Part shown: piece by piece, positions 2,193 through 62,505 of the stretch
Position numbering within the stretch: position 1 is the stretch's first letter
Layout of the letters: every line of letters begins with the position of its first letter
Assembly (NCBI RefSeq): GCF_018143015.1
Contig: NC_054758.1
Location: 22,436,001 to 22,500,000 of the forward strand
From: Lytechinus variegatus
Lineage: Eukaryota > Echinodermata > Echinoidea > Temnopleuroida > Toxopneustidae
Direction of reading: 5' to 3'
DNA: 64,000 nucleotides
Translations under genes and position numbers: made by a program
Notes under the pieces: generated by a model
Seen by the model: the letters and a program-made list of their open reading frames with translations, nothing else
Told to the model about the DNA's origin: nothing
The model's database searches: none

Positions 2193-3281
2193 ATGAAGTT
2201 GTTGGCATTATTACTTGTCCTGCCGGCGATATGTATCGCCCAGCAGCAACAAGGCCCCGGAGCAAGACAGCCTGGGCAGGGCCCAGGAATGAGACCAAAT
2301 CAACCAAACCAGCCAGGACAAGGGCCAGGAATGAGACCTAATCAGCCAAACCAACCAGGGCAAGGGCCAGGAATGAGACCAAATCAACCAAATCAACCAG
2401 GTCAAGGTCCAGGAATGAGGCCAGGACAGCCGGGACAGGGACCGGGAATGAGACCAGGACAGCCAGGACAGGGTCCAGGAATGAGGCCAGGACAGCCAGG
2501 GCAGGGACCGGGAATGAGACCAGGACAGCCAGGACAAGGACCGGGAATGAGGCCAGGACAGCCAGGACAGGGTCCAGGAATGAGGCCAGGACAGCCAGGA
2601 CAAGGGCCAGGAATGGGACCAGGAATGGGCCCAGGAATGGGGCCAGGTATGGGCCCAGGGCAAGGACAAGGACAAGCTATTGGTTCAAAATGTAAAGGAG
2701 GCTGGTTCCTCATTGGACAGCAATGTTTTAAGATGATGCCGAGAGCGCTGAAATGGAATGATGCCGAGTTGATGTGTGAGCAGAATGCCCCTTGTGGAAC
2801 CCCTGTACTCGCTGGTGTAATGACAATTCCCGATATCCAAACATCAAACGCAGTCATCAACCACCTTAAGAGCCTTTCAACCACAAATATGCGCATTGAC
2901 ATCCCGTTCTGGACAGGTCTTCACAACAAATGGAACCAGCTTCTTGAGAGGTATGAAGGGTGGAAGTGGCCTTCCGGTTGGAGCACAACACAACAGCCTC
3001 TACCGTTCGTTAACTGGGCACGAGGGGAACCTAACAATCAACTCCTGGATCAACAACACTCATACTGTGCAGCCATGAACGGGATGGGTGAGTGGTTTGT
3101 CCGACGATGCGACGAGCCTATGTATTCCATGTGTTCCATGCCAGTCAGTCCACCACTTACCGGTGCAGTACCTTCGAATCCTGGAATGGGTATGCTTGTT
3201 GAAACACCAGCTCAGATTCGCAACGGATACATTGAGCTTGAAAGCGGTCTGCTCATGAGGAGCAACGTTGGGGGCGCATAA
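2193..3281 (+). CDS. Secreted C-type lectin-like protein with N-terminal PGQM-rich repeats (spicule-matrix type)
   Basis: Single-exon gene, 362 residues from the chosen start. An in-frame ATG lies 12 codons upstream (2157), but the ATG at 2193 directly begins a typical signal peptide (MKLLALLLVLPAICIA), so I prefer it. After cleavage comes a low-complexity region (about residues 20-162): three units with PNQPNQ, then about six copies of an 11-residue unit QPGQGPGMRPG, then MGPG repeats. The CTLD follows (about 165-316), with cysteines at 167, 178, 195, 201, 292, 306 and 314, a WTGL motif near 240 (the family WIGL) and an EPN triad at 279-281. The second calcium/sugar motif WND is replaced by WFV. 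A 46-residue tail ends the protein. By family it should be secreted and bind mineral or matrix. It resembles the sea urchin C-lectin/spicule-matrix group; which orthologue is uncertain. Confidence 0.85.
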   Translation: MKLLALLLVLPAICIAQQQQGPGARQPGQGPGMRPNQPNQPGQGPGMRPNQPNQPGQGPGMRPNQPNQPGQGPGMRPGQPGQGPGMRPGQPGQGPGMRPGQPGQGPGMRPGQPGQGPGMRPGQPGQGPGMRPGQPGQGPGMGPGMGPGMGPGMGPGQGQGQAIGSKCKGGWFLIGQQCFKMMPRALKWNDAELMCEQNAPCGTPVLAGVMTIPDIQTSNAVINHLKSLSTTNMRIDIPFWTGLHNKWNQLLERYEGWKWPSGWSTTQQPLPFVNWARGEPNNQLLDQQHSYCAAMNGMGEWFVRRCDEPMYSMCSMPVSPPLTGAVPSNPGMGMLVETPAQIRNGYIELESGLLMRSNVGGA

Positions 3282-3546
3282 GACTCTGACAAACTCTTTA
3301 TCTTTTTTTTAAAATAATGTGCCCTGATTCTCGTCACCTAAGAATCCAAAATGGCGGACGTGTTAACTTTGACCCAAGGACATTCAGAAAAACAAGGAGG
3401 AAATGAAACTGTGAAAACTTATTAACAAGGGAATTTTCACCTTCCTAGCCTTGCCAGCAACTCTCTGATCGTTATTTCTCAGAATTTGCTATCCACTGAT
3501 ATTTAATTCAATTGAAGATGATAGTTCGAGCAATTCTCAGTAAGAA

Positions 3547-3552
3547 AATAAA
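3547..3552 (+). terminator. Candidate poly(A) signal of the first lectin gene
   Basis: AATAAA lies about 265 bp after the stop codon at 3281, in AT-rich sequence. It is the first canonical hexamer noted downstream, so it is the likely 3' end signal. Transcript data are lacking. Confidence 0.5.
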
Positions 3553-3859
3553 TATTTGTTCATTTTTTTAAACAAGGAATACTTTAACAATGATCTCATT
3601 TGTTATATTAGTTTTTATTTCAACTATAGTCAGTTTAATTGACGCAATGACAGAGTGTAGTTTTGTGATGTTGATATTTTCTATGTTACATTTGAACGAA
3701 AAAGATGTACAATATAATATTTTGCAACAAGTGTAAAATTACATTAAACGAATTTATTTCATTGTACATAATCGTATGAGTTTTCCAATTTGTTGCTGAT
3801 TGTGGACTGAGTTGGTAGGAACGACGTATTGTCTTTGATAATATGCATTCGATTGGTTG

Positions 3860-4960: not shown

Positions 4961-4992
<32 letters not shown>

Positions 4993-7590: not shown

Positions 7591-7594
7591 AAAC

Positions 7595-17329: not shown

Positions 17330-18585
17330 CGCACACATCCCGGACCCACACCCTCTCTCACACACAAGTCACATCACCTCTCCCATACACCCACACACCC
17401 TCACACACACAAGTCACATCACCTCTCCCATACACCCACACACCCTCACACACACAAGTCACATCACCTCTCCCACACACCCACACCCTCTCTCACACAC
17501 AAGTCACATCACCTCTCCCACACACCCTCTCTCACACACAAGTCACATCACCTCTCCCATACACCCACACACCCTCTCTCACACACAAGTCACATCACCT
17601 CTCCCACACACCCTCTCTCACACACAAGTCACATCACCTCTCCCACACACCCTCTCTCACACACAAGTCACATCACCTCTCCCACACACCCTCTCTCACA
17701 CACAAGTCACATCACCTCTCCCACACACCCTCTCTCACACACAAGTCACATCACCTCTCCCATACACCCTCTCTCACACACAAGTCACATCACCTCTCCC
17801 ACACACCCTCTCTCACACACAAGTCACATCACCTCTCCCACACACCCTCTCTCACACACAAGTCACATCACCTCTCCCACACACCCTCTCTCACACACAA
17901 GTCACATCACCTCTCCCACACACCCTCTCTCACACACAAGTCACATCACCTCTCCCACACACCCTCTCTCACACACAAGTCACATCACCTCTCCCATACA
18001 CCCACACACCCTCTCTCACACACAAGTCACATCACCTCTCCCACACACCCACACACCCTCTCTCACACACAAGTCACATCACCTCTCCCACACACCCTCT
18101 CTCACACACAAGTCACATCACCTCTCCCACACACCCACACCCTCTCTCACACACAAGTCACATCACCTCTCCCATACACCCACACACCCTCTCTCACACA
18201 CAAGTCACATCACCTCTCCCATACACCCACACACTCTCACACACACAAGTCACATCACCTCTCCCATACACCCACACACCCTCACACACACAAGTCACAT
18301 CACCTCTCCCACACACCCACACCCTCTCTCACACACAAGTCACATCACCTCTCCCACACACCCTCTCTCACACACAAGTCACATCACCTCTCCCATACAC
18401 CCACACACCCTCACACACACAAGTCACATCACCTCTCCCACACACCCTCTCTCACACACAAGTCACATCACCTCTCCCATACACCCTCTCTCACACACAC
18501 AAGTCACATCACCTCTCCCATACACCCACACACCCTCTCTCACACACAAGTCACATCACCTCTCCCACACCCATCACCAACCACA
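17330..18585. repeat. 39-bp minisatellite, about 30 units
   Basis: The unit combines CTCTCTCACACACAAGTCAC with ATCACCTCTCCCACACACC (39 bp); some units gain about 8 bp (CACCCACA), giving 47-bp variants, and CACACA/CATACA variants alternate. Since 39 is divisible by three, forward frames stay open for up to 507 codons (17259-18782) and read a SHITSP-THPL type repeat. No signal peptide or domain; I treat it as non-coding. Confidence 0.95.
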
Positions 18586-20637: not shown

Positions 20638-20790
20638 TTATGGTGTTTCTTGGTTGACTAAAAAGGCGGGAGGGGGAGCTTCGCCGCCCATCTCACAGAT
20701 GAACTGTCTCCTCATGTTACAATTCCTTGTTGCCCATCTGTTTTGGAAGGCTACAGTGCACATATTGGGTCCTCGTACGGGATTACCAGC
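20638..20790 (-). CDS. Exon 2 of a two-exon C-type lectin-like gene
   Basis: Encodes the last 50 residues of the protein begun at 25842-25504. The acceptor TTTTATATACAG precedes GCTGGTAATCCC, and the join is phase 0 on both sides. The exon supplies the second half of the CTLD: MCTVAFQNRWATRNC and then RRQFICEM, with the two C-terminal cysteines and a W/N position equivalent to the WND region (here WATRN). A 15-residue tail ends at a TAA. The frame stays open for 22 codons upstream of the acceptor, but that part (NVYYNFHIFYIFYI) is intron-like and includes the splice signal. Confidence 0.8.
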   Translation of the reverse strand, partial: AGNPVRGPNMCTVAFQNRWATRNCNMRRQFICEMGGEAPPPAFLVNQETP

Positions 20791-25503: not shown

Positions 25504-25842
25504 ATGCCATGGGTTGGTGAGTCGTGGATTGAGGGGTTCGCCACTTGCCCAGACGACTGGGCCATTGAAGGTCCTTAGACCGAGCCAGGTCTCATTCCGG
25601 GCCATCTGGTTGTAGTTCAGGATGTCCAGAACCTGTTGGTTCTCAAAGTCGGTCGTGATGGACACCAGGTGTCCCCCGAATCCGGTCTCACAGGAACTAA
25701 ACTGTGCACATCTTCTTACCGCATCGTTATAGGTAGCGAACACCTGGGATACCTTGTAGCAAGATCTACCGGATTGGTGCCACCCAACCGGACATGCAGT
25801 GACCGCTAGGGCCAGGGCGGCAAGGCACATTAATCGTAGCAT
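25504..25842 (-). CDS. Exon 1 of a two-exon C-type lectin-like gene (short secreted CTLD protein)
   Basis: Encodes residues 1-113; with exon 2 the protein is 163 residues. A signal peptide (MLRLMCLAALALAVTA) is followed at once by the CTLD, opening CPVGWHQSGRSCYK. Other visible marks are cysteines at 17, 28, 46 and 52, the WLGL motif (family WIGL) and GEPLNP, close to an EPN triad. One N-glycosylation sequon (NETW) is present. The exon ends ...NPWH at the donor CAT/GTAAGT. Unlike its neighbours, the protein has no Pro/Gly-rich repeat, so it is a bare CTLD. Likely a secreted skeletal-matrix or extracellular lectin; the precise family member is not identified. Confidence 0.85.
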
Positions 25843-29545: not shown

Positions 29546-30609
29546 TCACGATGAACTGCATGGAATTCAAATACCCTACTTCTTTCTGACCCATTGATAT
29601 GCAAATGCTGTCCGCTGTGGAGAGTAGATAGTAAATAAAGAAGCTTTTATCGGAGAAATTATAATTTGTTGTAAAAGATGGAGAAATTGTAAATTGTTAG
29701 ATGGAATAAAGTTCCATCCTTAAATCACGCCAGTAGTCATGGTAATGAGGAAACAGGAACCATGGTCCCTACCGCTAGGGAATGATAAGGGGAAGAGGAA
29801 AAGGGCAAAGATTTGAAATAGGGACAGGAGAAAAAGAAAGAGAGGGCAGAGAGAAGCACAAATCCAAAACTATATCACATCAAAGACTGGGTGCTTAAAA
29901 ACTAATCATATTGCAGAAACCATGTCGTTTTATCTTTTTAGATAAATAATAATAATTAACATTTATTTTTCAATTCATTTTTATATTTTCTCAGCATAAA
30001 ACAATATATAGTATATATATATATATATATATATATACAATATGTACATGTATAAGCGAAAACGCTAATCCTGAAATGTTTAAAGAAACTAGTGAGTTGT
30101 TGCTTCAAGTAAATTGATGAAAATGCATAATAACGATATTAAGCGAAAATATATACACACACAGCATTGCCATTAGCGGTCACTAGCATACATACAAGGG
30201 GGCGGCGGTGGGGAGGGCGGTAAATGTAGGATTAGGCAGGAGAAAAATTACTTTGAACAGTTGGATATATGCACAGGTTTTTTTTTTTTTTTACTAGGCA
30301 TTTATTAAATGAAGTTATTGTAGTTGAACACTTGACACTCGTCAGAAAGATTGCTCCATATACGAGGGCCAGTATGCCTTAATGGATTAAGTAGAATTTG
30401 TGTTTTAACTTTGGAATAGTGAAATTTAATACTTAGCCGAGTAATATGACAGTGAACAAAACGATGTTCATAATATGTATTTTCTCTGAATTGTCAATTT
30501 CTTATATATGTCAACGTATTTCATTTGATCCACACAGCATACATATATAGCGTCTTCTTCTGAGCAATATCCATTATATTTCCACATCGTCTTGAATTGC
30601 TAAAAAACC
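29546..30609. other. Intergenic DNA with a (TA)n tract
   Basis: No gene seen. A (TA)n tract lies near 30008-30040, a G-rich patch near 30200 and a T-run near 30280. Confidence 0.4.
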
Positions 30610-30612
30610 TAA

Positions 30613-31976
30613 AGCCCCAGTCACATATAGAGCCCGGACCACCCCGGACCATCCCGGATCTGATCCGGGGTGGTCCGGGGAGAGATCCGTGTTGGCACCT
30701 TGGGCATCCTTGGAGGTCCGGGGTGGTCCGTGTTGGTCCTTGAACGTCCGGGAGGCCAACACGGCAGTTTTTGACTGTCAAAAACATCCGGCGTCATCCG
30801 TGGACTGCCGTGTTGGCAAAGCCATCCGGGATGGTCCGTGTAGGTCCGTGTGGCTGCCGTGTAGGTCCGTGTAGCTGCCGTGTAGGTCCGTGTAGCTGCC
30901 TGGAGTATCCTTGGCAGTCCGTGTTCTTTTTTCCCCATCAAAATCATTACAGCGCTATTTACTTTATGAACTTTTCAGTAGTTATTAAACAGTTGACACA
31001 AACATGCTTAATTTATTCAAGTGGATGATTAAATGATTCAGGATATTTTCTTACGCTTTGGAGATTGGCCCCAACCTAATATTTGTAAACTTAGTGCATG
31101 TATGAATAATTTTTTTCCTAATATTTACCCACTACTTTGTTATCATATGTATATGTTATATGTTATGTACCTGTTACATCGAAATTGTACATTAAGTTTT
31201 ATACTACTGCCCTGCATCGACAGTAATATGCGTCATAACCTGGGCCTATCTTAATTGTTATTATGTTTTGTATAGACTTTGTAAATTTCTTTCCTTTATT
31301 GTGATTTTAATGAAGTGATATCAAATCAAATCGAAATTACATTTGTCGTTCAAGATTTAAAGTACTTAACATTTAACAACTACTGTTAAAACAGTAAACT
31401 GTGTTGTATAAAAAAACTGCGTTTTTACTGGTTAAGGAAATTTTGATATATTTTTAAACACAACATGATAATTTTGCGACAAGGATGAGAAAAAAATGAA
31501 CAAATAGATAAATAAATATATAATTAGATAAATATCAGCTCATTGTTGTGAACAGATTTTCATTTGCCGTGCTGGTCAATATAGCTGCCGTGTTGGTCCG
31601 TGTAGCTGACGTGTTGGTCCTTGTAGCTGACGTGTTGGTCCGTGTTGTTGACGTGTTGGTCCGTGTAGCTGACGTGTTGGTCCGTGTAGCTGACGTGTTG
31701 GTCCGTGTAGCTGACGTGTTGGTCCTTGTAGCTGACGTGTTGGTCCGTGTTGCTGACGTGTTGGTCCGTGTAGCTGACGGGTTGGTCCGTGTTGCTGACG
31801 TGTTGGTCCGTGTTGACGACGTGCTCTGCCGGCATGGTCCGTGTAGATCCGTGTGAAGCTGCCGTGTTGATGCCGTGTTTACAGTCATCCGGTTCAAAAC
31901 TATCCCGGACCTCCCGGATCATGCCGGTATTGCCGTGTTGATCCGTGAGGATCCGTGTCTATATGTGACTGGGGCT
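30613..31976. mobile_element. Non-autonomous TIR transposon, PIF/Harbinger-like, copy 1
   Basis: 1364 bp, bounded by inverted AGCCCCAGTCACATATAGA and TCTATATGTGACTGGGGCT and flanked by TAA on both sides (30610-30612 and 31977-31979), a 3-bp duplication typical of PIF/Harbinger. Subterminal regions are minisatellite-like: about 30630-30930 has GTCCGTGTAGCTGCC-type units, and 31565-31890 has about 12 units of 21 bp (GCTGACGTGTTGGTCCGTGT). The 21-bp period leaves frames open but encodes no domain. The middle (about 30940-31550) is AT-rich and ends in LINE-tail-like sequence. Confidence 0.75.
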
Positions 31977-31979
31977 TAA

Positions 31980-33168: not shown

Positions 33169-33759
33169 TTAAAGAGGAATGAAACCTTTTGAATAAAGAG
33201 GCTTGTGTAGAAACAGAAAAATCAAAGAATAAGAATAAAGAAAGTTTGAGAAAAATCGGACAAATAATGAGAAAGTTATGAGCATTTGAATATTGCAATC
33301 ACTAATGCTATGGAGATCCTCCCATTGGCAATGCGACAAGGATGTGTGATGTCACTGATGAAAAACTTTCCCTTTGGTGGACTATAAAATACCCTCAAAA
33401 TGTCTCTTTTTACTTTTTCTTATGATGATACAAACTCTTTATCCAAGATATATTCTTAAAAATATGTATTACATGCCCTCATGTAGAAAGAACACATGAT
33501 CTATGGATAGATGTGATAAAAGAGGCAATTCAAGTGAAATATAGACTAAAGTAATGGGGAGAGTTGTTCACACGTGACATCACACATCTTTGTCGCATTG
33601 CCAATTTGCTATCTCCATAGCATTAGTGATCGCAATATTCAAATGCTCATAACTTTCTCATTATTTGTCCGATTTTTCTCAAACTTTTGTTGATCTGTTT
33701 CTTTGATTTTTCTGTTTTCACACAAGCTATCTTGTTCCGATGGTTTCATTCTCCTTTAA
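33169..33759. mobile_element. Fold-back MITE with TTAA flanks (piggyBac-like), copy D
   Basis: TTAA at 33169-33172 and 33756-33759. Left AGAGGAATGAAACC pairs with GGTTTCATTCTCCT. The arms are long inverted repeats, for example AGAAAAATCGGACAAATAAT versus ATTATTTGTCCGATTTTTCT. The interior holds GTGATGTCACTGATG. It is a separate subfamily from copies A/E and B/C. Confidence 0.8.
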
Positions 33760-34023
33760 TGATAACATGGATGGTTTTTAGGACCCCGAGAGAAGCTCGG
33801 TTTGTGAGAGGGGCCCTGTCTAGATTAAGGTTTTGGGCTGAATCATAACAAACGAGCACCAAATTTGGAATTCGGTGGGACGATCGATGGGTAAATGCCA
33901 ATGCCAACTGACTAATGCAAGAAAAGAATGTTCGTCATTATTATTGTAGTCCTACCTCCGTGATGTATCAGTCAGTAATAGCATCGACAGGAAGCCCAAA
34001 TGCCATAGGAGTTCGTTGTAAGC

Positions 34024-34315
34024 ATTGGCGGCGGAAGCCAACAAAATTAGGAGGGGTCCACCTGAAATTTTGTGATGGACACAGGTAAAAAAAAAGAAGA
34101 AAAAAGGTCATCAACCAAAATTTTAGGGGGGGACCAAACACATTTTAGGGGGGTCCATATGAATTTAGGGGGGACGCAGGAAACAAAATTGACAAGCAAA
34201 AAAAAAAAAAAAGGTTATCAACTAAAATTTTAGAGGGGGACCGTCCGCCCCACCTCAAATTTAGGGGGATCTGTCCCCCCGTCCCCCCCCCCCGCTTCCG
34301 CCGCCTATGGTTGTA
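34024..34315. repeat. Interspersed repeat with GGCGGCGGAAGC / GCTTCCGCCGCC ends
   Basis: Begins GGCGGCGGAAGCC and ends GCTTCCGCCGCC. Inside are four diverged copies of an AATTTTAGGGGGG(A/T)CC motif separated by A-runs. Looks like a short non-coding element with tandem internal units. Confidence 0.6.
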
Positions 34316-35814
34316 AGCACGCATTAGATAAATAATAACATCTTATAAGAATACATAATACAGGAATAGTAAAGAGCGTATTTACAATTGGTCTAAACAC
34401 ATACATACGCATCCCCACACACTCACTTGCAACACACAGGTCAGCACGAGTAAACAAGAAGTCAAAGACTAACTTGAAAATTAATTATTTTTACAATAAT
34501 CTTTGGAATAACATCGCTTTAGCATGTTTAGAAAGGATTTTAAACCTCGAAAGCGTTGTACTGTTTGTTTGTTTTTTATATCAAGACAGTGGCAGCTTAT
34601 TTCATTCTCTGATACAAAAAAAAAGGAATCTTAGGAGAGATTTGTCCCAATATGAGACTGGTGTGTGTGTGTGATTCCTGTGGGGAGTATTATAATCATG
34701 CATCTGTGCATTGGAGGCAAACACACCTTGAGGACTAAACTAAATTAAACAATTAATCAAATCATTTCATGGTCTTTGAGGAACACCATAATTAAGTGAC
34801 GGTTTCTAGCGGGCAAATAAATGAAATCAGTAAAAATTCGTAAAATACGCGAATGCAAAAAAAAAAGAACAAGTTAATTTTGACGGTCGCAATTTATGCT
34901 GCCTAAGTTCACCAATCGTGGAGAGAGGTTATATTTATCACCGGTCTTGTTTTACAGTTTGGTGGATTTTTTTCTGAGCGATTTTCTGACCTTAACATAT
35001 TTTTCAATTTGGCTATTTTAGACCAGGATATACCGGGGTAAATATGACCATAACCCCCCCCCCCCCCGATCTCGGCCGCTGATTGCGCGATCGCCGCGAA
35101 AATTTGTTCGTGCGTAAAGGCGGATGCAAACTGCAAGGCTGTATAGTAAGATTTTCAAAAAATTAATTGGTTATATTTTTATCAATTATTTATGCAAATT
35201 AGCGTATGAAATTTGCCCTAATAGTGTTTTTGTGTATGTTTTTGTCCCAAACTCACTTAATATAGCTAGTAGTAATTTTTGGTTAGAGTATGAACTTTCA
35301 CATTTTCAACAAATAACGACAAAATTTGATAAAATATAGTTAAATGATATCTTATGTATTTTAGTTTTTTTAATCTTATGTATTTCTTCGTTTTTAAGAC
35401 TTTTTCCCCCGATGACCTTGCAATCATAAATAGCATGAAATAAATCCATTTAAACCATCACAATGGAAAAATGATCATACATTCATGACTTTTTATTGAA
35501 AAAACACAATTTGCATTGACTTTGTAAACGGAATCACGTTTTTGAACGATTTTTAGTCTGACATGCACTTGTTGCAGAATCTCGGAACCGCGTACCCGGC
35601 GGTCGCAAATTGAAAAAAGACTTGGAAGAAAAAGTCAGCAAGCGGTGCAGTAAAAAAAAATCGCGCGACGGCGTAGAAAATGAAATTTGTCGCCCCCCCC
35701 CGTTAAATAAGAGTTAAACAGGGACCTAAGCGAACTGGACGGCACAAAAGGGTGCGAAAAATATCATTAGAAGAAAAAACCTATCGAGGTGAAATATTTA
35801 AAATTTGTATATTT
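34316..35814. other. Intergenic DNA, nothing recognised
   Basis: About 1.5 kb without a gene. Poly-C runs at about 35056 and 35693. Confidence 0.4.
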
Positions 35815-35940
35815 AGATGTACATTCTGTACATACGTAGCATTTTGTAAATATCTTTATTGTTATTCAGGGCCCCATGGAAGACCACTACTTATTGGTGA
35901 ATGGGCTACCCTGTCAAAATATCAGAAATAAATAAATGAT
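35815..35940 (+). repeat. Likely LINE 3'-end fragment
   Basis: TTTGTAAATATCTTTATTG, GGGCCCCATGGA and the ending AGAAATAAATAAATGATT resemble the 3' untranslated tail of CR1/L2-like LINEs. No reverse-transcriptase frame accompanies it, so the assignment is weak. Confidence 0.35.
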
Positions 35941-35984
35941 TTCACCCATTCTTGATAATTGAGACACGTAATATGTAGTAGGAA

Positions 35985-36245
35985 TAGTGGCATACGTAGG
36001 ATTTTCCAAGGGGGGGGGGCAAATTAGTCCGCCAAAAACTTTGACAAGCAACCAAAAATAGGCTTCAAACACAAATAAAGAATTTCGTACCAGTGACAAA
36101 GTTTGACAAGAAAAAAAAGAAAAAAAAACAAGGGTCTTCACGTTCAAAGGAGCGGGCCACTTTTGGATCGTCAGGGATCAGTTGTGACTCGTCAGAGGGG
36201 GGGGGGGGGCAGTCTACACCCTCTGCCCCCCCCCCCGTAGTCACG
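35985..36245. repeat. Poly-G/C-bearing interspersed repeat
   Basis: GGCATACGTAGGATTTTCC followed by a G-run and GTCCGCCAAAAACTTTGACA, then a GACAAG(A)n stretch. A related inverted copy lies inside the TIR transposon at 38335-38505 (CGAAAATCCTAGGTACGCC after a C-run). Further G and C runs follow at 36197 and 36227. Confidence 0.55.
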
Positions 36246-36376
36246 CTAACGAGTAGGAAAGAAAGTTGCACAACTTAATTGTCCACCTGCCATGTGCATC
36301 ATAGAAGAGCGTCTCGCACCAACCAACGTTGATCGTATTATTTCGTATATTTCGAGTCCTATGCTAAGGGATCTAA

Positions 36377-36946
36377 AGGCCTGGTCACACCGCCCGAGCG
36401 TTGTTGGCGCAGTCATGGCGAGGACAGACAATATGCAAATGACACTTCAGACACTGAGCTTAATATAAATCTATTCAACGTCCTTTGTGATAGCAGCATG
36501 TAAATTTCAACATTATTGAAATTTTCAAGCAGTCAATGAGAGAAAACTAACAATATCTTGACAATTCTTCCACATAAGGATGCTTATTTGCATATTATGC
36601 AAATGAGGTAGATTTTTTTGCACTTTTGATTAAAAACATTGATTAAAGTTATTTATCATGAATTAAAATAAAACTGTTTTGGACACTTAATTTGTAATTT
36701 TTGGACTATTTTCCTTATTTTTCTTACTTTTTATGGCTAATTTGCATAATATGCAAATTTCATAAATTTCCACTGCTTGGATTTTTTGGGACTTTTAGTA
36801 TGTTGTTAAGGGGACCTTCCTGGAAAGCATTGCAGTGGAAAATCAAGTGTTGCAATTAGTGGTGGGTCAAACGCTATATTGACTGGGTGGTAGGGAGAGA
36901 GGGTCGAATTTCGCTCCAACAACGCTCGGGCGGTGTGACCATGCCT
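36377..36946. mobile_element. Non-autonomous TIR element, PIF/Harbinger-like (570 bp)
   Basis: Inverted ends AGGCCTGGTCACACCGCCCG and CGGGCGGTGTGACCATGCCT with TAA on both sides (36374-36376, 36947-36949). The interior is AT-rich with no coding capacity. Terminus and 3-bp flank resemble those of the elements at 30613 and 37756. Confidence 0.7.
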
Positions 36947-37149
36947 TAAGGCATGGACCTATTCCGCCCGAGCGTTGTTGGAGCGGTCGTGGAGCGGAGA
37001 GAAAAAATCATCACCGCTCGCTACCGTTCACCATTTTTTCTTTCGATTGTTTTCTTTTTGTTTTCGATTTTTCCCCACTTTTGTGAGCGAAATTCGACCC
37101 TCTCTCCCTATCGCCTTACGACCGCTCCAACAACGCTCGGGGGGGGGGG
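36947..37149. mobile_element. Second, shorter copy of the same fold-back family
   Basis: TAAGGCATGGACCTATTCCG leads into CCGCCCGAGCGTTGTTGG; the right arm CCAACAACGCTCGGG runs into a G-run at 37140 and the end is lost. GAGCGGAGAG and its surroundings resemble the right arm of 36377-36946. Confidence 0.6.
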
Positions 37150-37300
37150 GCGTTTCATGAAAGGACTTGTCGGACGTTTTATCCGACAAGTCCCATTTCA
37201 CCCGATAGTTACCATAGGAACAGTGCCTCTCAGCCAATCAAAATCATGGAAAGATGTCAGATCTGACATCTTGTCGGATGAAAATATTGATGAAACGCTT
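37150..37300. mobile_element. Small fold-back MITE with GCGTTTCAT ends
   Basis: GCGTTTCATGAA at the left pairs with TTGATGAAACGC at the right, and GGACTTGTCGGA / TCCGACAAGTCC form an inner hairpin. About 150 bp, non-coding. Confidence 0.6.
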
Positions 37301-37752
37301 CCCAGGCCTTAACCGTCTGGGACCTGTATCGCGGCATTGTGACGTCATTTCGTTCCGTTCCTTCATCTGTTCATGGTTGCACTAACAAATCTACATCGTG
37401 AAATAACCAAGGGACAAAGCGACTAAGCGTTAAGATTAAAATTAAATGCCAACTTAATCATGTTAATCCGCAAAGCAGACATTCGTGCTCATTTTCCCCA
37501 TGAAATGAAAAAAAATAGACGGCATTTTGATAAATAACTGGATTTTAATCAAACATTTTGTTAATGGTGTGTATATAAAGTGTAAATTGGTCTCACTCTA
37601 TATCTTGGGTTGTGCAAAAGAGTGAAGCGAGCAATCAATTGAATTGCGTAAAACGCAATTTCTTGAACATTTTCCTCATGAAACATTCCGCATCTTCCCC
37701 CTCCCCCAAAAAAAACTTCAAAAGAGAAGGGTAGAGATAATGAAAAATTGCA
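37301..37752. other. Intergenic DNA, nothing recognised
   Basis: A TGACGTCA palindrome (CRE-type) occurs near 37342-37349 without a gene nearby. No other supported feature. Confidence 0.35.
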
Positions 37753-37755
37753 TTA

Positions 37756-39285
37756 AGCCCAAGTCACATATAGACACGGATCCTCACGGATCAACACGGC
37801 AATGCCGGCATGATCCGGGGAGGTCCGGGATAGTTTTGCCCCGGATGACTGTAAACACGGCATCAACACGGCAGCTTCACATGGATCTACACGGACCATG
37901 CCGGCAGAGCACGTCGTCAACACGGACCAACACGTCAGCAACACGGACCTACACGTCAGCAACACGGACCAACACGTCAGCTACACGGACCAACACGTCA
38001 GCAACACGGACCAACACGTCAGCCACAAGGACCAACACGGACCAACACGTCAGCAACACGGACCTACACGTCAGCAACACGGACCAACACGTCAGCTACA
38101 CGGATCAACACGTCAGCTACACGGACCCACACGTCAGCTCAAGGATCAACACGTCAGCTCAAGGATCAACACGGCAGCTGTATTGACCAGCACGGCAAAT
38201 TAAAATTTGCTCATAATAATGAGCTGATATCCATTTATTTATTTATTTATTCATTTGTTTCATTTTTTTCTCATCCTTGTCGCAACATTATATTATGATG
38301 TTTTTTAAAAAGATATCAAAACTCAAAACTTCCAATTTGTGATTGAAAACCCCCTTTTTTTTGCTTGTCAATTTTTTTCGGGTACGAAATCCTTTATTTG
38401 TGATTGCAAACCGTTTTTTATTTTTATTTTTTGGCTTGTCAAATTTTTTTGGCGTACGATTTTGCCCCCCCCCCCTGCCGAAAATCCTAGGTACGCCACT
38501 GATTTGATATCACTTTATTGAAATCACAATAAAGGAAATAAATTTTCCAATTCAATAGAAAACATAATAAAAATTAAGATAGGCCCTGGTCATGACACAT
38601 AACTGTCGATGAAGGGCAGTAGTATAAAACTTAATGTACAATTTCGATGTAACAGGTACATAACATATACATATAACATGTTAAAAAAAAATGAAATGTG
38701 AAATAATAATAACAGACACAGTTGGGGTAAATATTAGAAAAAAAGAGGAGAAATTATTCATACAGGCACTAAGTCTACAAATATTAGGTTGGGGCCAATC
38801 CCAAAAGCGTAAGAAAATATCCTGAATTATTTAATAATCCATTTAATTATAAATAAATTAAGCACTGTTTAACAACTACTGAAAAGTTCATAAAGTAAAT
38901 AGCGTTGTAAAGATTTGATGGGAAAGAAGAACACGGACTGCCAAGGATACTCCAGGCAGCCACACGGACCTACACGGCAGCTACACGGACCTACACGTCA
39001 GCCACACGGACCTACACGGCAGCTACACGGACCTACACGTCAGCCACACGGACCTATACGGTAGCTACACGGACCATCCCGGATGGCTTTGCCAACCCGG
39101 CAGTCCACGGATGACGCCGGATGTTTTTGACAGTCAAAAACTGCCGTGTTGGCCTCCCGGATGTTCAAGGACCAACACGGACCGCCCCGGACCTCCAAGG
39201 ATGCCCAAGGCGCCAACACGGATCGCTCCCCGGACCACCCCGGATCAGATCCGGGGTGGTCCGGGGTCTATATGTGACTGGGGCT
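37756..39285. mobile_element. Non-autonomous TIR transposon, PIF/Harbinger-like, copy 2 (inverted relative to copy 1)
   Basis: About 1.53 kb. Begins AGCCCAAGTCACATATAGAC and ends TCTATATGTGACTGGGGCT. Flanks are TTA (37753-37755) and TCA (39286-39288), compatible with a decayed 3-bp duplication. Its left end corresponds to the reverse complement of the right end of copy 1. The 21-bp units (CAACACGTCAGCTACACGGA type) fill about 37900-38190 and related units fill 38935-39080. The middle has an extra block with a C-run (about 38335-38505) absent from copy 1, which explains most of the length difference. Confidence 0.75.
38335..38505. repeat. Repeat inserted inside TIR transposon copy 2
   Basis: Two diverged direct units (TTGTGATTGAAAACCCCC... 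and TTGTGATTGCAAACCG...) followed by a C-run and CCTAGGTACGCCACTG. Absent at the matching place in copy 1 and related to 35985-36110 in inverse orientation, so it most likely entered after the transposon copies separated. Confidence 0.5.
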
Positions 39286-39389
39286 TCAACTAACAGATCT
39301 ATCATTTTCGTCTCACCTGCATAGGCGCCACTTTTCCGACGGCGGCGGAATCAACACCAAATTTTACGTTTTTTAAATGACAGCATAAC

Positions 39390-42236
39390 TTAGAAAATGC
39401 TTATAATGGGAGACTTTAATTATGATCTTTTAGCGAGTGATACTAATATTTTAGCAAATGACTTTTTAGAGACATTCCTTTCTGCCTCCTTTTTGCCACT
39501 TATTTCTAGACCCACTAGAATTACTAATACTTCCGCAACTCTGATTGACAATTTTTTCTCCAATATTCGTTCAGAATTTAAAGCTGGTATAATTATCTCA
39601 GACATGTCTGATCATTTCCCAATTTTCATGTATTGTTCTAATCAATATCAGCCAAACAACTTTCCCAATTATGTACCTAAGAGGCGTGTATATAGTGATC
39701 TAAATATATCTCGTTTGAAACAAAGTTTAGAAGAAGAAACTTGGGATGATGTATTTAGTACAGAATGTGTTGACGAGTCCTACGAAACATTTATTGATAT
39801 CTTCATGAGTCATGTTAATGAAAATATCCCTTTTGCAAAGCCCAAGTCTAAAAATTATAAAAGATCACCTAGATTACCTTGGATAACGAATTCAATTCTT
39901 CGTTCGATAAATAAAAAAAATCGATTATACTATAAATATATATCAAGATTAACTGAGAATACTCGGAGCCAATATACCAATTATAAGAATATACTAACAG
40001 GGGTCATCCGTACTGCTAAAAAGGCATATTACCATGATCAATTTAATCAATGCAAGAATGATCTTAAAAAAACATGGAAATTGATCAATTCTACCATCAA
40101 TAATGGACAAAAGTTTTCAAAGATAACTAAGCTTATGCATAATGATTCTATTATTGAAGATAAAGCTCAGATGGCAAATATTTTCAATAATTATTTTTCA
40201 CAAATTGGATTTGAGCTCTCTAGAAGTATCCCAACAAATTCCCATTCATTTCATCAATATCTGGGAGATAGAAATCAAAGTTCTATGTTTTTTTCTCCTA
40301 CGAACGCACAGGAGATAATTAAAATTATATCTAGCCTAAAATAAAAAAAAGTGCAGGTTTCGATAACATTGATAACATCCTTTTACAGAAAACTATGAAT
40401 TATATAATTGACCCTCTTATTTATATATTCAATTTGTCTTTATCATCGGGAAATATTCCAAAATCAATGAAAATTTCTAAGATAATACCAGTCTTCAAAA
40501 AGGGTGATAGTTCTTTAGCAAGTAACTACAGACCCATTTCATTGCTTACAAACTTATCTAAAATTCTTGAAAAACTGGTTCACATACGAACCATATGTTT
40601 TTTTAAAAAGCACAACATCCTATCCGATACTCAATTTGGTTTCCGAGAAAAGAGTAGCACTTCCCATGCAATACTTTCTTTAGTTCAAACAGTTGCCAAA
40701 GCTTATGACATGTCTTCGAATACGATTGGTATGTTCTTAGATTTTTCAAAAGCATTCGATACAGTTGATCATAATATTCTCCTTTATAAACTTTCTCATT
40801 ATGGAATTAGAGGGGAACCACTAAAGTGGTTCAAGAATTATCTAACCGGGCGTTCACAGTTCGTTTCACTTGATGGTAATATTTCTGAACATAAACCTGT
40901 TCTTTGTGGAGTTCCACAGGGCAGCATTCTTGGCCCACTTTTGTTCATTACTTATATAAATGATATTGATATGTCATCAAGATTGCTTCAATTTATACTT
41001 TTCGCTGATGACTCTAATATATTTCTGTCGCACCCCGACCCAGATCAATTGATGCAAATATTCAATGACGAACTAAAAAATGTTTCTAATTGGATAACAG
41101 CTAACAAACTTTCTCTTAACCTAGAAAAAACTAGCTACATGCTATTTAGCAACAAGATTACGACTGTACCAAAAGATGTAATTTTAAATGATACTGTTAT
41201 TCAAAGAGTGCGATCAACTAAATTTTTGGGACTGATCATTGACGATAAACTTTCTTGGAAAACACATATTGATAATATTTGTAAAATCATTGCTCGCAAT
41301 ATTGGTGTCATTAGAAAATTAAGTCACTTCTTACCCCATTATATTTTGTTATCATTATATTCAACGTTAATTTTACCTTATCTGAATTACGGAGTTGTTG
41401 CATGGGGTAACGCAGCGAATTCTCAAATTAATAGACTTTTTATATTACAAAAAAGAGCGATTCGTATTATTAGTCATGCAGATTTCAGGGCACATACAAA
41501 TATTCTGTTTTTGAAAAATAAAGTCTTGAAGGTTAAAGATTTATATTCTTTTCAACTCGGACAGTTAATGTACAAGTTTATTAATAAACAATTACCGTTA
41601 CCGTTTGATAATATGTTTGTAAAAAATGATACAATTCATAAGCACTTCACTCGCCAGGCGAGTTCCTTTCATTTACCTCTGAATAGAACATCGTTTGCAC
41701 AGAAGACATTTGTTTTTACTGGTCCAAAATTATGGAATTCTTTTTCAAAGGAAATTATACAATGTAATTCAATACAAAATTTCAAAGGAAAACTTAAAAA
41801 ATATCTTCTGGATTCATATTAAATTATCGTTTTTTCACAAAGTTATGTAACTCAGAACTTAATATGTAAATGTGTTTGTTAATTTCTCTTTGTATATATG
41901 TTTAATCGTTTTATGATTTCTGTATACAGTGTATACTGATTCATTCATTTTTATTTTTATTTATTTCTATTCTTTATTTTTTATTCATTGTATATATGTA
42001 TTGTTTATTTCTTTATTTTATCTTATTTTTATTCATAAATGTATTTATGAAAGGGGGCCTTCACCCTACAAGCTCTGCTTTTTAGTTGGTCTCCTTCTCT
42101 TTCGAATTCATAGTATTATTGTATTATAGAAATGATTTATATATATTTTGTAAATATGTACATGTATATTGAACTATCATTGTAAATGTAAAAAGATTGA
42201 AAGAGAAAATAAATGAATTGAATTGAATTGAAAAAA
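39390..42236 (+). mobile_element. 5'-truncated CR1/L2-like LINE with reverse transcriptase
   Basis: Open frame 1 (39397-40344) covers the C-terminal part of an APE-type endonuclease: MGDFN near its start and SDHFP (residues 70-74) are the family motifs. Open frame 2 (40395-41822, 475 residues) holds the reverse transcriptase: NYRPISLL (44-51), FLDFSKAFDTVDH (114-126, motif A), GVPQGSILGPLLF (172-184, motif B) and FADD (203-206, motif C). The two parts are one protein interrupted by one frameshift at an A-run near 40342-40350. The N-terminal endonuclease and everything upstream are missing. The 3' end has AATAAATGAATTGAATTG repeats and an A-run, as in CR1/L2 tails. Nearly intact, so a fairly recent, dead-on-arrival insertion. 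Confidence 0.85.
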
Positions 42237-45740: not shown

Positions 45741-46811
45741 TCATGGCATAGCTATAGCTTGTGCTTGTTGGTACATCCTGGGTTGTTGCGGCCATCGGCC
45801 ACCACCTTGGTTGGGGTTCTGGGGGTTCCAGCCTCCTGCCCCAGGTCTTTGTGGATTCCATCCTCCAGCACCACCTTGACCTTGATTTGGGTTCCATCGT
45901 CCACCTCCTGCTCCTTGGTTGGGATTCCATCCTGCTCCTGCACCTTGGTTGGGATTCCATCCACCTCCTTGACCTTGGTTAGGATTCCATCGTCCACCGC
46001 CGGCGCCTTGGTTGGGGTTCCAACGCCCTCCACCTTGATTTGGATTCTGATTTCCCCAGCCTCCCTGACCGGCTCCTGCTCCTGCACCCCATCCTCCTTG
46101 ACCTCCTTGACCTCCTTGTCCCCAACCGCCACGTCCACCACCAGGCATACCTGGTCCCATTCCAGTTGATTCATTGAAGCCTCCTCTTCCTCCAGTGTTG
46201 ATATTAGGGTTGACGGTACCTGCCGGTGAAATCTCACAAATAAAAGCAGCTGCCATGTTGCATGCTTGATGGCCCCACTTCGTTGTACCTCCATTCATCT
46301 GCATTTGACCCGGAAGCGTCATACAGCGGCCGTTCCAGCGGAAGTTGGTCGGGTCAAAGGTTTGTCGAGGTTGTTGTCCTCCTGGCCTCTGTCCTGGCAT
46401 CATTGGTCTGTTTGGTCCCCAGTGCTCGTCAAGGAGGGCATTGTCATAAACTTCTGTACTGTCCCAAGTTGAGTTCCTACCTTGTCCTAGGCGGAAACCT
46501 AGCCAGACATTTTGCGGACGGAGCCTTTGGCCTTCTCCTATCCTGTTTCCACGGAGAGGTTGTAACAGGTCAAACCTGAGCTTTCGGACTACTCTGCGTT
46601 CCTCGAAAGTTGTTGGGCAAGCCAGGTGACCGGGAGAAATTCCGTCGCATCCTACGAACTCCTTGCACATCTGCGAGGCCATGTCATAGGTCCTCTTGCC
46701 ACCAAAAGCACGGTAACAGCTGTTCTCCACCTTCGTCCATGATGGCGGACACTGGGCCTGGACGGCTATTAAACCTGCAACCAAGCAGGCAAAACGGAGC
46801 GCTGCCTCCAT
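45741..46811 (-). CDS. SM37: Spicule matrix protein SM37
   Basis: Intronless coding region of 356 residues. Signal peptide 1-19 (MEAALRFACLVAGLIAVQA), then a CTLD from C21 to about C192: CPPSWTKVENSCYRAF opening, cysteines 32, 49, 55, 65, 163, 184 and 192, and WLGF at 103-106 (family WIGL). An insert around 133-155 is rich in P, G, Q and R. Residues 208-340 are a Gly-rich domain whose later part repeats a GGGRWNPNQGAG-type unit about seven times. The C-terminus PRMYQQAQAIAMP resembles the SM50-type tail. Sequons at 113 (NST) and 213 (NES). The classic EPN/WND calcium residues are absent. Known role: matrix protein occluded in the larval calcite spicule, made by primary mesenchyme cells. SM37-SM50 linkage is known in sea urchins and supports the name. 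Possible confusion: another SM50-family paralogue. Confidence 0.85.
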   Translation of the reverse strand: MEAALRFACLVAGLIAVQAQCPPSWTKVENSCYRAFGGKRTYDMASQMCKEFVGCDGISPGHLACPTTFEERRVVRKLRFDLLQPLRGNRIGEGQRLRPQNVWLGFRLGQGRNSTWDSTEVYDNALLDEHWGPNRPMMPGQRPGGQQPRQTFDPTNFRWNGRCMTLPGQMQMNGGTTKWGHQACNMAAAFICEISPAGTVNPNINTGGRGGFNESTGMGPGMPGGGRGGWGQGGQGGQGGWGAGAGAGQGGWGNQNPNQGGGRWNPNQGAGGGRWNPNQGQGGGWNPNQGAGAGWNPNQGAGGGRWNPNQGQGGAGGWNPQRPGAGGWNPQNPNQGGGRWPQQPRMYQQAQAIAMP

Positions 46812-47210
46812 TTTGGATTCAAATCAGAAAGCCTATTTATTTCTTGTCCTTTGCTTTTTAAGAGATTCCAGCACACAACTTTGTCCAAAGCTCTTACTCT
46901 GACTGAAGGTTTAGCTCGAATGAAATGAACGAAGCACGGAACCCATGGGTGCGCGGTCTTCTGCACACGGCACGCAGCAAAGTGGGTGTTACCAAACTTG
47001 GTTGTCAGTCACTTCTCCCCTATACCTCCGAATAGTCACGTAAGCACCGCCCATCTCTAAAGTCCCTCTCCTCTCACCTTCTGACTCAGTCCGGACTCAC
47101 GTGGTTTTCCCCCGTCTTCCGGAAAAGCGTAAAACGGGGTTAAAAATAGGGGGCAAAAATAGAACTCTCCATGAAGTACAAAACCATACGGTTTATGCTC
47201 TTTATAGGCT
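46812..47210 (-). promoter_or_regulatory. Candidate SM37 promoter / 5' region
   Basis: Upstream DNA of SM37. A palindromic ETS core TTCCGGAA lies at 47117-47124, about 305 bp before the start codon, and a TATAAA on the minus strand lies near 47200-47205. An ATAAATA at 46834-46840 is too close to the ATG to be a TATA box with a usable leader. The start of transcription is not defined. ETS factors drive skeletogenic genes in sea urchins, so the ETS site is plausible but untested. Confidence 0.4.
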
Positions 47211-50084: not shown

Positions 50085-50633
50085 GGCCCCGAAGTCCCTC
50101 CCCATCTGTACTGAAGTGGCTAAGACCATGAGGGCTCGCATCCACCCTAGGCCCTACCCCATCTGAAATGAAGTGGCTAAGACCATGAGGGCTCGCATCC
50201 ACCCTAGGCCTTACCCCATCTGAAATGAAGTGGCTAAGACCATGAGGGCTCGCATCCACCCTAGGCCCTACCCCATCTGAAATGAAGTGGCTAAGACCAT
50301 GAGGGCTCGCATCCACCCTAGGCCTTACCCCATCTGAAATGAAGTGGCTAAGACCATGAGGGCTCGCATCCACCCTAGGCCCTACCCCATCTGAAATGAA
50401 GTGGCTAAGACCATGAGGGCTCGCATCCACCCTAGGCCTTACCCCATCTGAAATGAAGTGGCTAAGACCATGAGGGCTCGCATCCACCCTAGGCCTTACC
50501 CCATCTGAAATGAAGTGGCTAAGACCATGAGGGCTCGCATCCACCCTAGGCCTTACCCCATCTGAAATGAAGTGGCTAAGACCATGAGGGCTCGCATCCA
50601 CCCTAGGCCTTACCCCATCTGAAATGAACTCAA
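50085..50633. repeat. 57-bp minisatellite, about 9 units
   Basis: The unit runs from TGGCTAAGACCATGAGGGCT through CGCATCCACCCTAGGCC to CCCCATCTGAAATGAAG. Units differ mainly at one base (CTAGGCCCTA versus CTAGGCCTTA), which alternates in the first six units. The 57-bp period is divisible by three, giving an open minus-strand frame reading VDASPHGLSHFISDG; I treat it as non-coding. Confidence 0.95.
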
Positions 50634-59065: not shown

Positions 59066-61989
59066 GGTCTTCAAAACAATTATTTTTGGAAAGACATACC
59101 TACATACTTCTCCAAAAAAAAAAAAAACAGAAATAAATATGCATGTATACTGTTCATGGTACTTCATGCAATTATATAATCAAATCATTTTCTGCATCAT
59201 TATAAATGATTTTAAAGAAAAAAAACGAATGAATGGAGGAATATGTTAGTCAAAAGCTTTGCATGAAAGAAAACAGGTTGAAACATAGCTGGCGCTCTTT
59301 TGAATGTTTTTAGGTAAACTCTCCTTGTCGCTCCAACTGAAATCATTATTGTTATTGTAATAATTATATAATTATAGTCACTAGTATTGGTATAATTAGT
59401 GTTGTTAAAATCACAATTATTAATATTAATGTCCTCATTATTATTGCTGTACCCACCCAAACTAAAATCAGTAGAAGGTTTCTCTTTTTTACTTTCGAAA
59501 CTTAGGTGGATCTTGGAAATATTGTAGTTTAAAATGTATACCATCATCATTGTCGTCGTCGTCTTCATTGTTATAATTTTGCTATTCTTGATATTAGTAG
59601 TATTTCTGCTAGTACCTCCATTCAATTATATATCATTCTTATACTTCTTTCTATCTCATCATTAGCCAATATACAATCGCAAAACCATATCAAACCCTTT
59701 CACTGACTTTATGCTATTTCAGGGGTACCTAGTTTGATTAACCCCTTCGTCTATTGTTTCCGTGGCATAGTCAATGATTATTGTTAATTGATTGCATTAA
59801 ATGATTAACACATATAATACCGCATATCAAACTTTTCTGGCAGACCCTCAACTATAGAGTAACAAAACATTTTGTTACCAATTATTGTATTGTAAAGGAA
59901 TCATGTTTTTTCGTATAATGTTGAATGATTTTTTATTCAGGTAATCGTGAAAGAAAGATTAATGTTGTAAAAGTGATTAGGGCTTATTTTCGATAACGTA
60001 TATATTTTATTGTTTTAACAATGTATGATAAAAGCGCAAAGAATGAACTACATCCGATATTTTGATTAACGAAATTGCAAACATTTAGTCGATAACTTTC
60101 TTTAAATCAATCAATGACGTACGGACAAATAAATGGAGTATGTATGTATGGAGTCTAGTCATAATTCTTTTTTTTTTATATATATTATCATTTGATTTTT
60201 GATGATGTGATTATAATGATCATTATAATCATCATTGTGTCATACATAGATTTAACTTGACTTTAGACATGGTCTCAAACAAGACCTGGTTGTCTTTACG
60301 TCATCGCTTGAATCATTGTTAGCTTATATAATCAATCAGGTTATATATCTTAAAGTATTGTGTGTGTTGGAAAGCTACGTAATGAGCCAACAATTTTTTA
60401 AGGGATCAGATAAGGCGAAGAGGCAAAAAGCTTCTTTTTTTTACTGCAAGCGAGCGAGCAAAAAAATGGACATCTTTTATTACAAAGATTCAATTTTGTA
60501 ATTGATTTTGACTTAGTTAATGTTAAAAAAATATATATTTTTCACCATTCTCTCTTTCCTTTATTTTCCTTTTGTCTTGTTTTTCTTGGCTATAATTTTT
60601 AATGGGGGGGGGGGGGCAAGCGACCCTAAGCCCCCCACCTGTACGCAACCGGAGTTAGGTTTGAGTGGGTGGGAGGGAGTGTGAGTGTGTGTATATGTCT
60701 GGGTGTGTTGTGTGATTAGTATAGCGGCTAATGTTTGGAACTAATATTCACTTGAAGTAAGGTGAGACATTAGCATGATTAGGCCACAGTCTAAGGTTAG
60801 ACGACTTTTGAAAAAACAGGTTGATATCAGTCTGTATAGTCCAGACAGGTCATGTCTTATTTTCTTAGGAATATTTATTCTTCCTTTTCTTTATCACTCT
60901 TCTAATTTGTAAGCAATTATTTTAAATTGCCTTATTCAAAACTCTTCTTAATTATCTCCTGTTGATTAAACAGAAAAAGTTTGTATTAACATAATTTTTG
61001 TTGTTTCCAATGTTGTTGTTGTTCTTCTTGTTGTTATTCTTCATCATCATCGTCATCACCACCATCATCTTCTTCTTATTGTTATTCTTATTTTTTCTTC
61101 TTCCTATCATTATTATAATTATTATTATCATTATTATAATTATTGTTGTTATTTTTGTTATTATCATTATTATTGTTGTTGTTGTTACTTTTATTATCAT
61201 TAGGAGCAAATACTGTTACTACATTACTGTTTTTGTTGTTTCTGTATATATAAGGAGACAAGGACTATGATCATTATCCGTAATGAGCAGAATATTACTA
61301 AAGCTCGAGTGATTTTTTTTTACAAACAATTTCATTTCGATTTCTACATTAGACAAGTAATTATATTACGATGAATAATAAATCTCAGCATAATCTTTAC
61401 AGTTATGATTTACAAATTTTCTATGATCTATATATTTGCATTATTTATTATCTTTAATTTACCCAAATAATCCAAAATAAACTTTCATGCATTAATCATA
61501 GACTTTTTTCATGTTTAGTGAATTATTATTGCTTATGAAAATTTTTAAAATAAAAATGATGAAACATCTATTACAGTTTTCCAAAGTTTACGTACGAACA
61601 ATATTTTCAACCTTTTTTGTTCCCCAAGTGAATCATAATTTGAACTCAACAATTTCGTGATTCCAAATGCAGTCGACCTTCAGATAATCATAAGACCAAA
61701 ATGAAAATACTTGAAATAAATGCTATTCCAAAGTTTTGGTGACCTTTGAATAAATTCGGAAAGATATTACAATCTTATCTTTTTATTTCATTTGCAAAGT
61801 CTTGTCCTGGGTGACACATATTGCGTATGGGGAATTAAAGTACTAACTGAGATTTTAGGGTGAGCCATAGTGTCGGTGTATGTCAGAGAATATAACTAGG
61901 CATATCTTAAACCGCATGAGGAGCATTGCTCAGGAGGCCCCATAGTTATGCACACCGTATATTACAGATAGCCTATACACATGGACACC
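59066..61989. other. Gene-free intergenic DNA before SM50
   Basis: No gene seen. ATT/ATC-rich patches lie at 59340-59600 and 61000-61205 and a G-run near 60605. Otherwise AT-rich with nothing recognisable; may contain distal SM50 control DNA. Confidence 0.4.
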
Positions 61990-62401
61990 CACATTCGCCT
62001 ATACACACCCTCACTCCTACAGGAAGTCACACTCATTATGGGTAATTATGCGCTCATCCCAAAGCCCCTGACTCAAGTTTCCCTTTCGGAACCCCGGCTA
62101 GGTCTGGATGTGCGTCAATCTTACCAAACCCTCTGATTGGTCAAAAGTGTAAAGCCCACTTTGGGGCTTCTGCGCACTTCCCCTGCGCATGGGGCGTGCC
62201 CTGAGCTTACTCGACCACGCCCCATTAGACTCCTGAGCTCGGGGAAGGGTTACGCCTGTTGTGCGCGAGGTTCGGAGGTACGGCTCGGGCTTTCATTCGA
62301 GTTTGCTGGTGGTTGTGAATGCATCAATCCCATTTCTTCTACAGTTCGAGAATCAAGAAAGAAATATTGTACCCAGATTGCCACAGGTTTCAGACCGAAC
62401 C
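61990..62401 (+). promoter_or_regulatory. SM50 proximal promoter and 5' leader
   Basis: GC content rises sharply from about 62050. Visible sites are ACAGGAAGT (ETS type, about 62019-62027), ATTA at 62035-62038 and TAATTA at 62043-62048 (homeodomain half-sites), GATTGGTC (inverted CCAAT, 62135-62142), and two CACGCCCC boxes in opposite orientation (62189-62198 and 62216-62225). No TATA box is evident. ETS and paired-class (Alx1) factors are known inputs of skeletogenic genes; site use here is inferred. The start of transcription is not defined. Confidence 0.55.
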
Positions 62402-62505
62402 ATGAAGGGACTTTTGCTTATTTTGGCTAGTCTTGTAGCCATTGCTACAGGTCAAGACTGCCCTGCATACTATGTCCGGAGTAGCTCCGGTGCATCATGT
62501 TACAG
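62402..62505 (+). CDS. SM50: Spicule matrix protein SM50, coding exon 1 (rest lies beyond the window)
   Basis: Encodes MKGLLLILASLVAIATG (signal peptide), then QDCPAYYVRSSSGASCYR, the opening of the CTLD with its first two cysteines (20, 33). This closely follows the known SM50 N-terminus. The exon stops after TACAG at the donor GTATGTTT (62506), splitting the Arg codon, the position where SM50-type genes carry their intron. The frame is open upstream of this ATG, but only here does a signal peptide start. Exon 2, with the rest of the CTLD and the Gly/Pro/Gln/Asn-rich repeats, must lie downstream of 64000. Role: major occluded matrix protein of the larval spicule, needed for skeleton elongation. 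Confidence 0.9.

Follow-up and report, generated by a model that had tools for sequence, protein, structure and literature searches.

Do the secreted C-type lectin-like domain (CTLD) genes that lie close together in the genome of the sea urchin Lytechinus variegatus form one array of skeletal matrix genes, and did that array grow from a single gene? We examined this in a 64,000-nucleotide stretch (the window; NC_054758.1, positions 22,436,001 to 22,500,000), in which the first-pass annotation had described a cluster of four secreted CTLD genes of the biomineralisation type, and read it together with 100 kb on each side (C19:22336001-22600000, 264 kb). All four gene models with a likely signal peptide and a CTLD are confirmed at positions almost exactly as first read, and each product has a single CTLD. 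We consider it probable that they constitute a spicule-matrix-type array of four loci and five products, namely a PM27-type gene, a bare CTLD gene that we call G2, SM37, and SM50/SM32, and that three of these loci derive from one CTLD gene. We presume the names SM32, SM37 and SM50 from known features of these sequences and from the linkage in print, rather than from comparison with database sequences.

The array spans about 70 kb, from 2,193 to 72,550, and the four loci give five products because SM50 exon 1 has two second exons in phase with it. The gene structures, and their linkage, are read directly from the DNA, and the coordinates are collected in Table 1.

Table 1. Array genes, their exons and associated motifs, in window positions; those above 64,000 are window-equivalent and lie outside the window.
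Feature	Positions	Strand	Remarks
CATTCGA motif	2065..2071	+	128 bp upstream of PM27 ATG
PM27-type gene	2193..3281	+	single coding exon, 362 aa
Tandem repeats coding Pro/Gly/Gln/Met domain	2274..2624	+	42-nt then 33-nt units
G2 exon 2	20638..20790	-	CTLD end, short tail, stop
G2 exon 1	25504..25842	-	likely signal peptide, most of bare CTLD
SM37-type gene	45741..46811	-	single coding exon, 356 aa; likely signal peptide, then CTLD and a repeat tail rich in Gly/Asn/Gln
TTTCATTCGAG	46915..46925	-	its CATTCGA 111 bp upstream of SM37 ATG
TTTCATTCGAG	62291..62301	+	its CATTCGA 108 bp upstream of SM50 ATG
SM50 (presumably also SM32) coding exon 1	62402..62505	+	104 nt, GT donor
SM32-like second exon	67139-67817		outside window; in phase with exon 1
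SM50-like second exon	71668-72550		outside window; in phase with exon 1

The leftmost locus had been labelled a PGQM-repeat lectin; its gene and repeats are real, but the label is corrected here to the PM27 architecture. The product, predicted at 38.3 kDa including the signal peptide, consists of a likely signal peptide, about 145 aa of repeats, the CTLD (Lectin_C score 29.4 bits, against a Pfam cut-off of 22.6 bits) and a tail of about 43 aa without clear repeats. The repeats are Pro-Gly-Gln-Met units of 11 or 14 residues, of the PGQGPGMRPGQ and GQGPGMRPNQPNQP types. In published PM27 a long disordered region precedes the CTLD, whereas other spicule matrix proteins have it after the CTLD, and the PM27 repeat is composed of Pro, Gly and Met (PMC6771980), given elsewhere as PGMG (PMC2614417). 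Because the part order equals that of published PM27, we refer to this gene as PM27-type.

The SM37 gene has a single coding exon, a CTLD and an SM37-type repeat tail, with a Lectin_C score below the cut-off (17.5 bits, E 0.007). SM37 and SM50 are divergent, with 15.6 kb between their starts. For SM50 the earlier call holds in the window for exon 1, but both second exons lie beyond it. The exons are splice-compatible, and yield an SM32-like product of 260 aa with an NQP-rich tail and an SM50-like product of 328 aa with GFGGQQP repeats; the SM32 second exon alone matches no Pfam family at E<=0.01. Since a genome-wide protein search found a single copy of exon 1, the simplest reading is that SM50 and SM32 share this signal-peptide exon and differ in the second exon to which it is spliced. 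G2 has a GT-AG intron of 4,713 bp and encodes 163 aa that are essentially a CTLD alone (Lectin_C score 43.5 bits).

All five translations have hydrophobic N termini, as judged by eye. A short Pro/Gly/Asn/Gln repeat domain is present in PM27, SM37, SM50 and SM32 and not in G2, which we therefore do not count among the matrix proteins with repeats. Predicted isoelectric points are 9.6 (PM27), 10.0 (SM37), 8.9 (SM50), 8.5 (G2) and 5.9 (SM32). In their repeats and in the arrangement of their parts the repeat-bearing products correspond to PM27, SM37, SM32 and SM50, in agreement with the biomineralisation type first proposed. As excerpted, the published work places SM50, SM32, SM37 and PM27 in the most abundant third of the matrix proteins of Strongylocentrotus purpuratus spicule, tooth, test and spine (PMC2909932). 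In L. variegatus itself sm37 expression extends throughout the skeletogenic syncytium (PMC13200730); a skeletal cluster of S. purpuratus is marked by pm27a and sm50 (PMC10396339), a list of primary mesenchyme markers includes SM37, PM27 and SM50 (PMC8615465), and in Heliocidaris crassispina SM32, SM29, PM27 and SM37 share one skeletogenic subcluster, with SM30 marking another (PMC11817407). On these excerpts, skeletogenic expression or a place in skeletal proteomes is documented for PM27, SM37, SM50 and SM32, but nothing in them points to G2.

The limits of the array, as far as CTLD genes are concerned, are also read from the sequence. A profile scan of the 264 kb (6,417 stop-to-stop open reading frames, ORFs, of at least 25 aa) found no CTLD gene beyond the array members: six ORFs had E <1e-4, each of them an exon of an array gene, and the seventh stood at E 0.61. 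Three window CTLDs went into the profile along with three from outside, and the window CTLDs match it by construction. Genome-wide, Lectin_C occurs at at least 150 places at E<=0.001 (150 scored of 513 candidates, 869.6 Mb, 33 contigs), and an even spread of all 513 candidates would place about 0.04 in 70 kb. Other CTLD clusters exist in this genome, as on contigs C2, C3, C8 and C15; because CTLD genes cluster anyway, the density excludes chance scatter but not separate origins.

The five products have one uncommon feature in common, a C-x5-C in which an extra cysteine follows the conserved helix cysteine by six residues (CAQFSSC, CKEFVGC, CEQNAPC and, twice, CEMVTPC). It is absent from 15 of 16 other CTLDs compared, one of which has C-x8-C and another an insert of similar length minus the cysteine. 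Counting the extra one, there are seven CTLD cysteines in G2 and in PM27, five in SM50 and in SM32, which are without two of the later CTLD cysteines, and eight in SM37. The odd number in four of the five products makes a link between chains possible, and the extra cysteine could form it. Sugar-binding C-type lectins carry EPN or QPD and WND motifs at the calcium site. Read by eye, these are not intact in any of the five: PM27 has EPN with WFVRRC replacing WND, G2 has EPLN and WATRNC, and SM37, SM50 and SM32 have neither an EPN/QPD nor a WND motif. Single-sequence structure prediction was uninformative (mean predicted local distance difference test score 35.3 for the SM37 CTLD and 33.1 for that of PM27). 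The sixteenth CTLD, which does have C-x5-C, belongs to a secreted-looking bare CTLD gene on chromosome 4, with two copies (C4:34291674-34292975 and C4:36810652-36811921) that are 90.6% identical over 3.3 kb; this gene is the best aligned partner of PM27.

Evidence for a common origin of SM37, G2 and SM50/SM32 comes from searches and from one of two trees. The best non-self genome match of SM37 is G2 (1.4e-5), G2 is the sole match of SM50 apart from its own exons and SM32 (3.1e-6), and SM37 is the second non-self match of G2 (3.5e-5). When each of the five products was compared with 20 others against shuffled sequences, SM50 and SM32 ranked G2 first after each other. The 21 rows of this comparison are matches of these searches and not a random sample, and they do not include near-copies, second domains or loose fragments. 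A tree of the 16 full CTLDs groups G2, SM37, SM50 and SM32 with support of 86/89 and, within them, G2 with SM50 and SM32 at 86/88. PM27 behaves differently. Its CTLD finds no array member at E<=0.1 in the genome, and it falls outside the other members in both trees; a clade of all five rows is rejected by the approximately unbiased test in the 21-row tree with fragments (p-AU 0.014) and not rejected in the 16-row tree without them (p-AU 0.093). The chromosome-4 CTLD as query does find PM27 (2.8e-6, 35th row) and SM37 (0.028) among 132 matches, so that the partnership of PM27 with this gene is not reciprocal. We conclude that relationship by tandem duplication, first proposed for the whole cluster, is moderately supported for SM37, G2 and SM50/SM32, but PM27 is joined to them by neither tree.

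The sequences upstream offer a further hint. CATTCGA occurs in sense at three of the four loci, at -128 (PM27), -111 (SM37) and -108 (SM50), and not in the 1 kb upstream of G2; within the 264 kb the 11-mer TTTCATTCGAG has just two occurrences, one of them at SM37 and the other at SM50. We take TCATTC within TTTCATTCGAG to fit the initiator consensus, and CATTCGA may be a core-promoter initiator. A 7-mer in three of four upstream regions within 20 bp arose at a rate of 0.011 in 20,000 random quadruples and 0.0018 in 5,000 shuffles. In a scan for Ets sites, the lowest background fractions were 0.04 (two strict sites, SM37) and 0.08 (five loose sites, PM27).

Several observations weigh against a single array of common descent. 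The 86/89 group lies below the starred level of support, and the 21-row tree, in which five rows are partial, has no four-row group, yet does not reject one (p-AU 0.437); SM37 and PM27 are long branches. The best non-self match of G2 is a chromosome-17 CTLD (1.5e-7). In the shuffled comparison SM37 ranks a chromosome-7 exon and a CTLD on C1 ahead of G2, five non-cluster CTLDs stand above SM37 for G2, and PM27 ranks the chromosome-4 gene first and G2 fifth. That gene carries C-x5-C off the cluster. No intron position is common to any two loci among the gene models compared: the intron follows the second CTLD cysteine in SM50/SM32, lies late in the CTLD in G2, and is lacking from the coding sequences of SM37 and PM27. 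This, with repeats that differ among loci, agrees with the divergence in exon structure and repeat domain claimed at the outset. Upstream, the 1-kb regions have only 0-2 11-mers in common per pair, none of the four contains an Alx1-type palindrome, and the CATTCGA evidence is suggestive only, because the test followed the discovery of the motif. Excerpts on H. crassispina also record SM37 and SM32 in digestive-cell subpopulations (PMC11817407). The chromosome-7 exon that heads the SM37 ranking is the first of a two-exon CTLD gene (C7:35995292-35998180), a possible SM30-type gene.

Many of these points would be accommodated if CTLD genes of different origin had been brought together, perhaps held by common skeletogenic control, with only SM50 and SM32 as recent duplicates. 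The differing introns, the chromosome-4 C-x5-C, the position of PM27 outside the rest in searches and both trees, and the rejection of the five-row clade in one of them are all consistent with such relocation. We nevertheless regard it as unlikely, for G2 is the best non-SM32 genome match of both SM37 and SM50, the four-row group is recovered in one of two trees, and TTTCATTCGAG is confined, in the 264 kb, to matching places at SM37 and SM50. More sweeping is the proposal that the array is an ordinary local CTLD expansion like many others in this genome, without skeletal meaning, to which the clusters on other contigs lend some colour; it seems very improbable to us, given repeats and part order as in PM27, SM37, SM32 and SM50, which in the available excerpts are matrix proteins of another urchin.

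The place of G2 is harder to assign. It could be an immune or other lectin that merely sits in the array, or a source gene that was never skeletal, and its lack of a repeat domain, its upstream region without CATTCGA and its best solved-structure matches, which are to endocytic receptors (PLA2R and LY75 among them), would fit this. Its position between PM27 and SM37, its C-x5-C and its grouping with SM50 in one tree argue the other way, and we consider a non-skeletal G2 rather doubtful. Also relevant is Sp-Clect_25 (Glean3:11163) of S. purpuratus, described in excerpts as having a well-conserved CTLD without the conserved sugar-site residues, tentatively of the SM50 family, and as a spicule matrix protein without an intact sugar site (PMC2527298, PMC2909932). 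In G2 the sugar site is likewise not intact; at a guess, Sp-Clect_25 is its candidate match.

Returning to the array of four loci, of which three derive from one CTLD gene, we infer the order of duplication, the expression of G2 and the roles of the proteins as follows. SM37, G2 and SM50/SM32 most likely arose from one CTLD gene by local duplication, after which introns changed and repeats grew independently, G2 having departed least from the ancestor; PM27 would either have duplicated alike and then diverged beyond recognition, or have entered separately. Each product would be secreted, presumably by skeletogenic cells, into the space of mineral deposition, where the CTLD may act as a compact disulphide-held module for contact with protein or mineral and the Pro/Gly/Gln/Asn repeats as a disordered, gel-forming part, as in the published model for this protein group. 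A stronger version, which we put forward only tentatively and think less likely to hold, sees in the array the skeletogenic core of the SM50 family of this urchin and makes G2 the surviving ancestral bare two-exon CTLD from which local duplication gave SM37, SM50/SM32 and perhaps PM27; these would have kept or regained a common initiator-type promoter and a chain-linking extra cysteine while each grew its own repeats, the array then being one co-expressed unit apart from the SM30 genes. The rapid evolution of skeletal matrix proteins defeats ordinary orthology, and a fixed array would provide positional landmarks; it also predicts joint regulation of its genes. Should G2 be a skeletogenic founder, studies of how a lectin fold acquired disordered repeats would have a concrete gene to start from.

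The surroundings contain genes of other kinds. In Pfam searches of 20 ORFs, the extent of the survey of non-CTLD genes in the interval, four of the first ten matched at E<=0.01 (methyltransferase, G-protein-coupled receptor, RING-variant and reverse transcriptase of a long interspersed nuclear element, LINE) and six did not; the SM32 exon was one of these, as was the other ORF of the LINE. One of the second ten matched (reverse transcriptase). On the left, the methyltransferase ORF is about 16 kb outside the window and about 18 kb from the array; to the right, the receptor ORF starts at +87.6 kb, 15 kb past the array end, and the RING-variant ORF is at +112 kb. The LINE first reported in the window is real: two overlapping frames occupy 39394-41822, of which the second matches RVT_1 (E 8.8e-38) and the first no Pfam family. 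They directly follow a region, 30500-39300, that looks like an inserted repeat element, in which arms of 21-bp tandem units at 31694-31915 and 37818-38039 are 95% complementary and 5.9 kb apart, with further units at 30816-30934 and 38909-39108. A second RVT_1 fragment is at window-equivalent 81686-82396. Tandem arrays of 57 bp (50100-50628, 9.3 copies, 98% matches) and 39 bp (17347-18570, 29 copies) are also present, and tRNA and Rfam scans of the window gave 0 matches.

How does this array compare with known systems? Linkage of SM37 and SM50 in sea urchins, which the first-pass annotation called known, is already published, reportedly by Lee, Britten and Davidson in 1999, to go by the title. 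SM37 and SM50/SM32 are likewise close together here, but the array also holds the PM27-type gene and G2. Excerpts for S. purpuratus list the models SM32 (Glean3:18810), SM50 (18811) and SM37 (18813) (PMC2527298, PMC2909932), and adjacency there is suggested by the neighbouring numbers; duplication and repeat gain have been proposed for urchin skeletal C-type lectins in general (PMC7351957, PMC4336488). New here are the PM27-type gene and the unnamed bare CTLD G2 in the SM37/SM50 array, together with the SM32 exon and the moderate support for a shared ancestry of three loci. The literature searched, as excerpted, does not place PM27 beside SM37/SM50, but it did not cover the key linkage and gene-survey papers, so that this may be in print. 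SM50-family genes also adjoin each other in S. purpuratus, in the case of SM29, Sp-Clect_13 and Sp-Clect_14 (PMC2527298, PMC2909932, excerpts), but no such extra genes were found in the 264 kb here.

PM27 of Heliocidaris erythrogramma and S. purpuratus likewise has a Pro/Gly/Met repeat ahead of a single CTLD. The repeat domain here is about 145 aa, compared with a domain reportedly of 34 aa in published PM27, a figure from a title only. Further afield, the vertebrate mineralisation gene clusters (secretory calcium-binding phosphoprotein, SCPP, genes) would be a parallel if G2 is a skeletogenic founder. At E<=0.001, 74 distinct sequences of solved structure match a profile made from the five CTLDs; they include CEL-I, CEL-IV and the bird eggshell proteins ovocleidin-17 and struthiocalcin-1. 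The latter two are CTLD proteins of calcium carbonate mineral as well, but from birds and without a repeat domain, and the use of the CTLD in eggshell and in urchin is likely to reflect independent recruitment.

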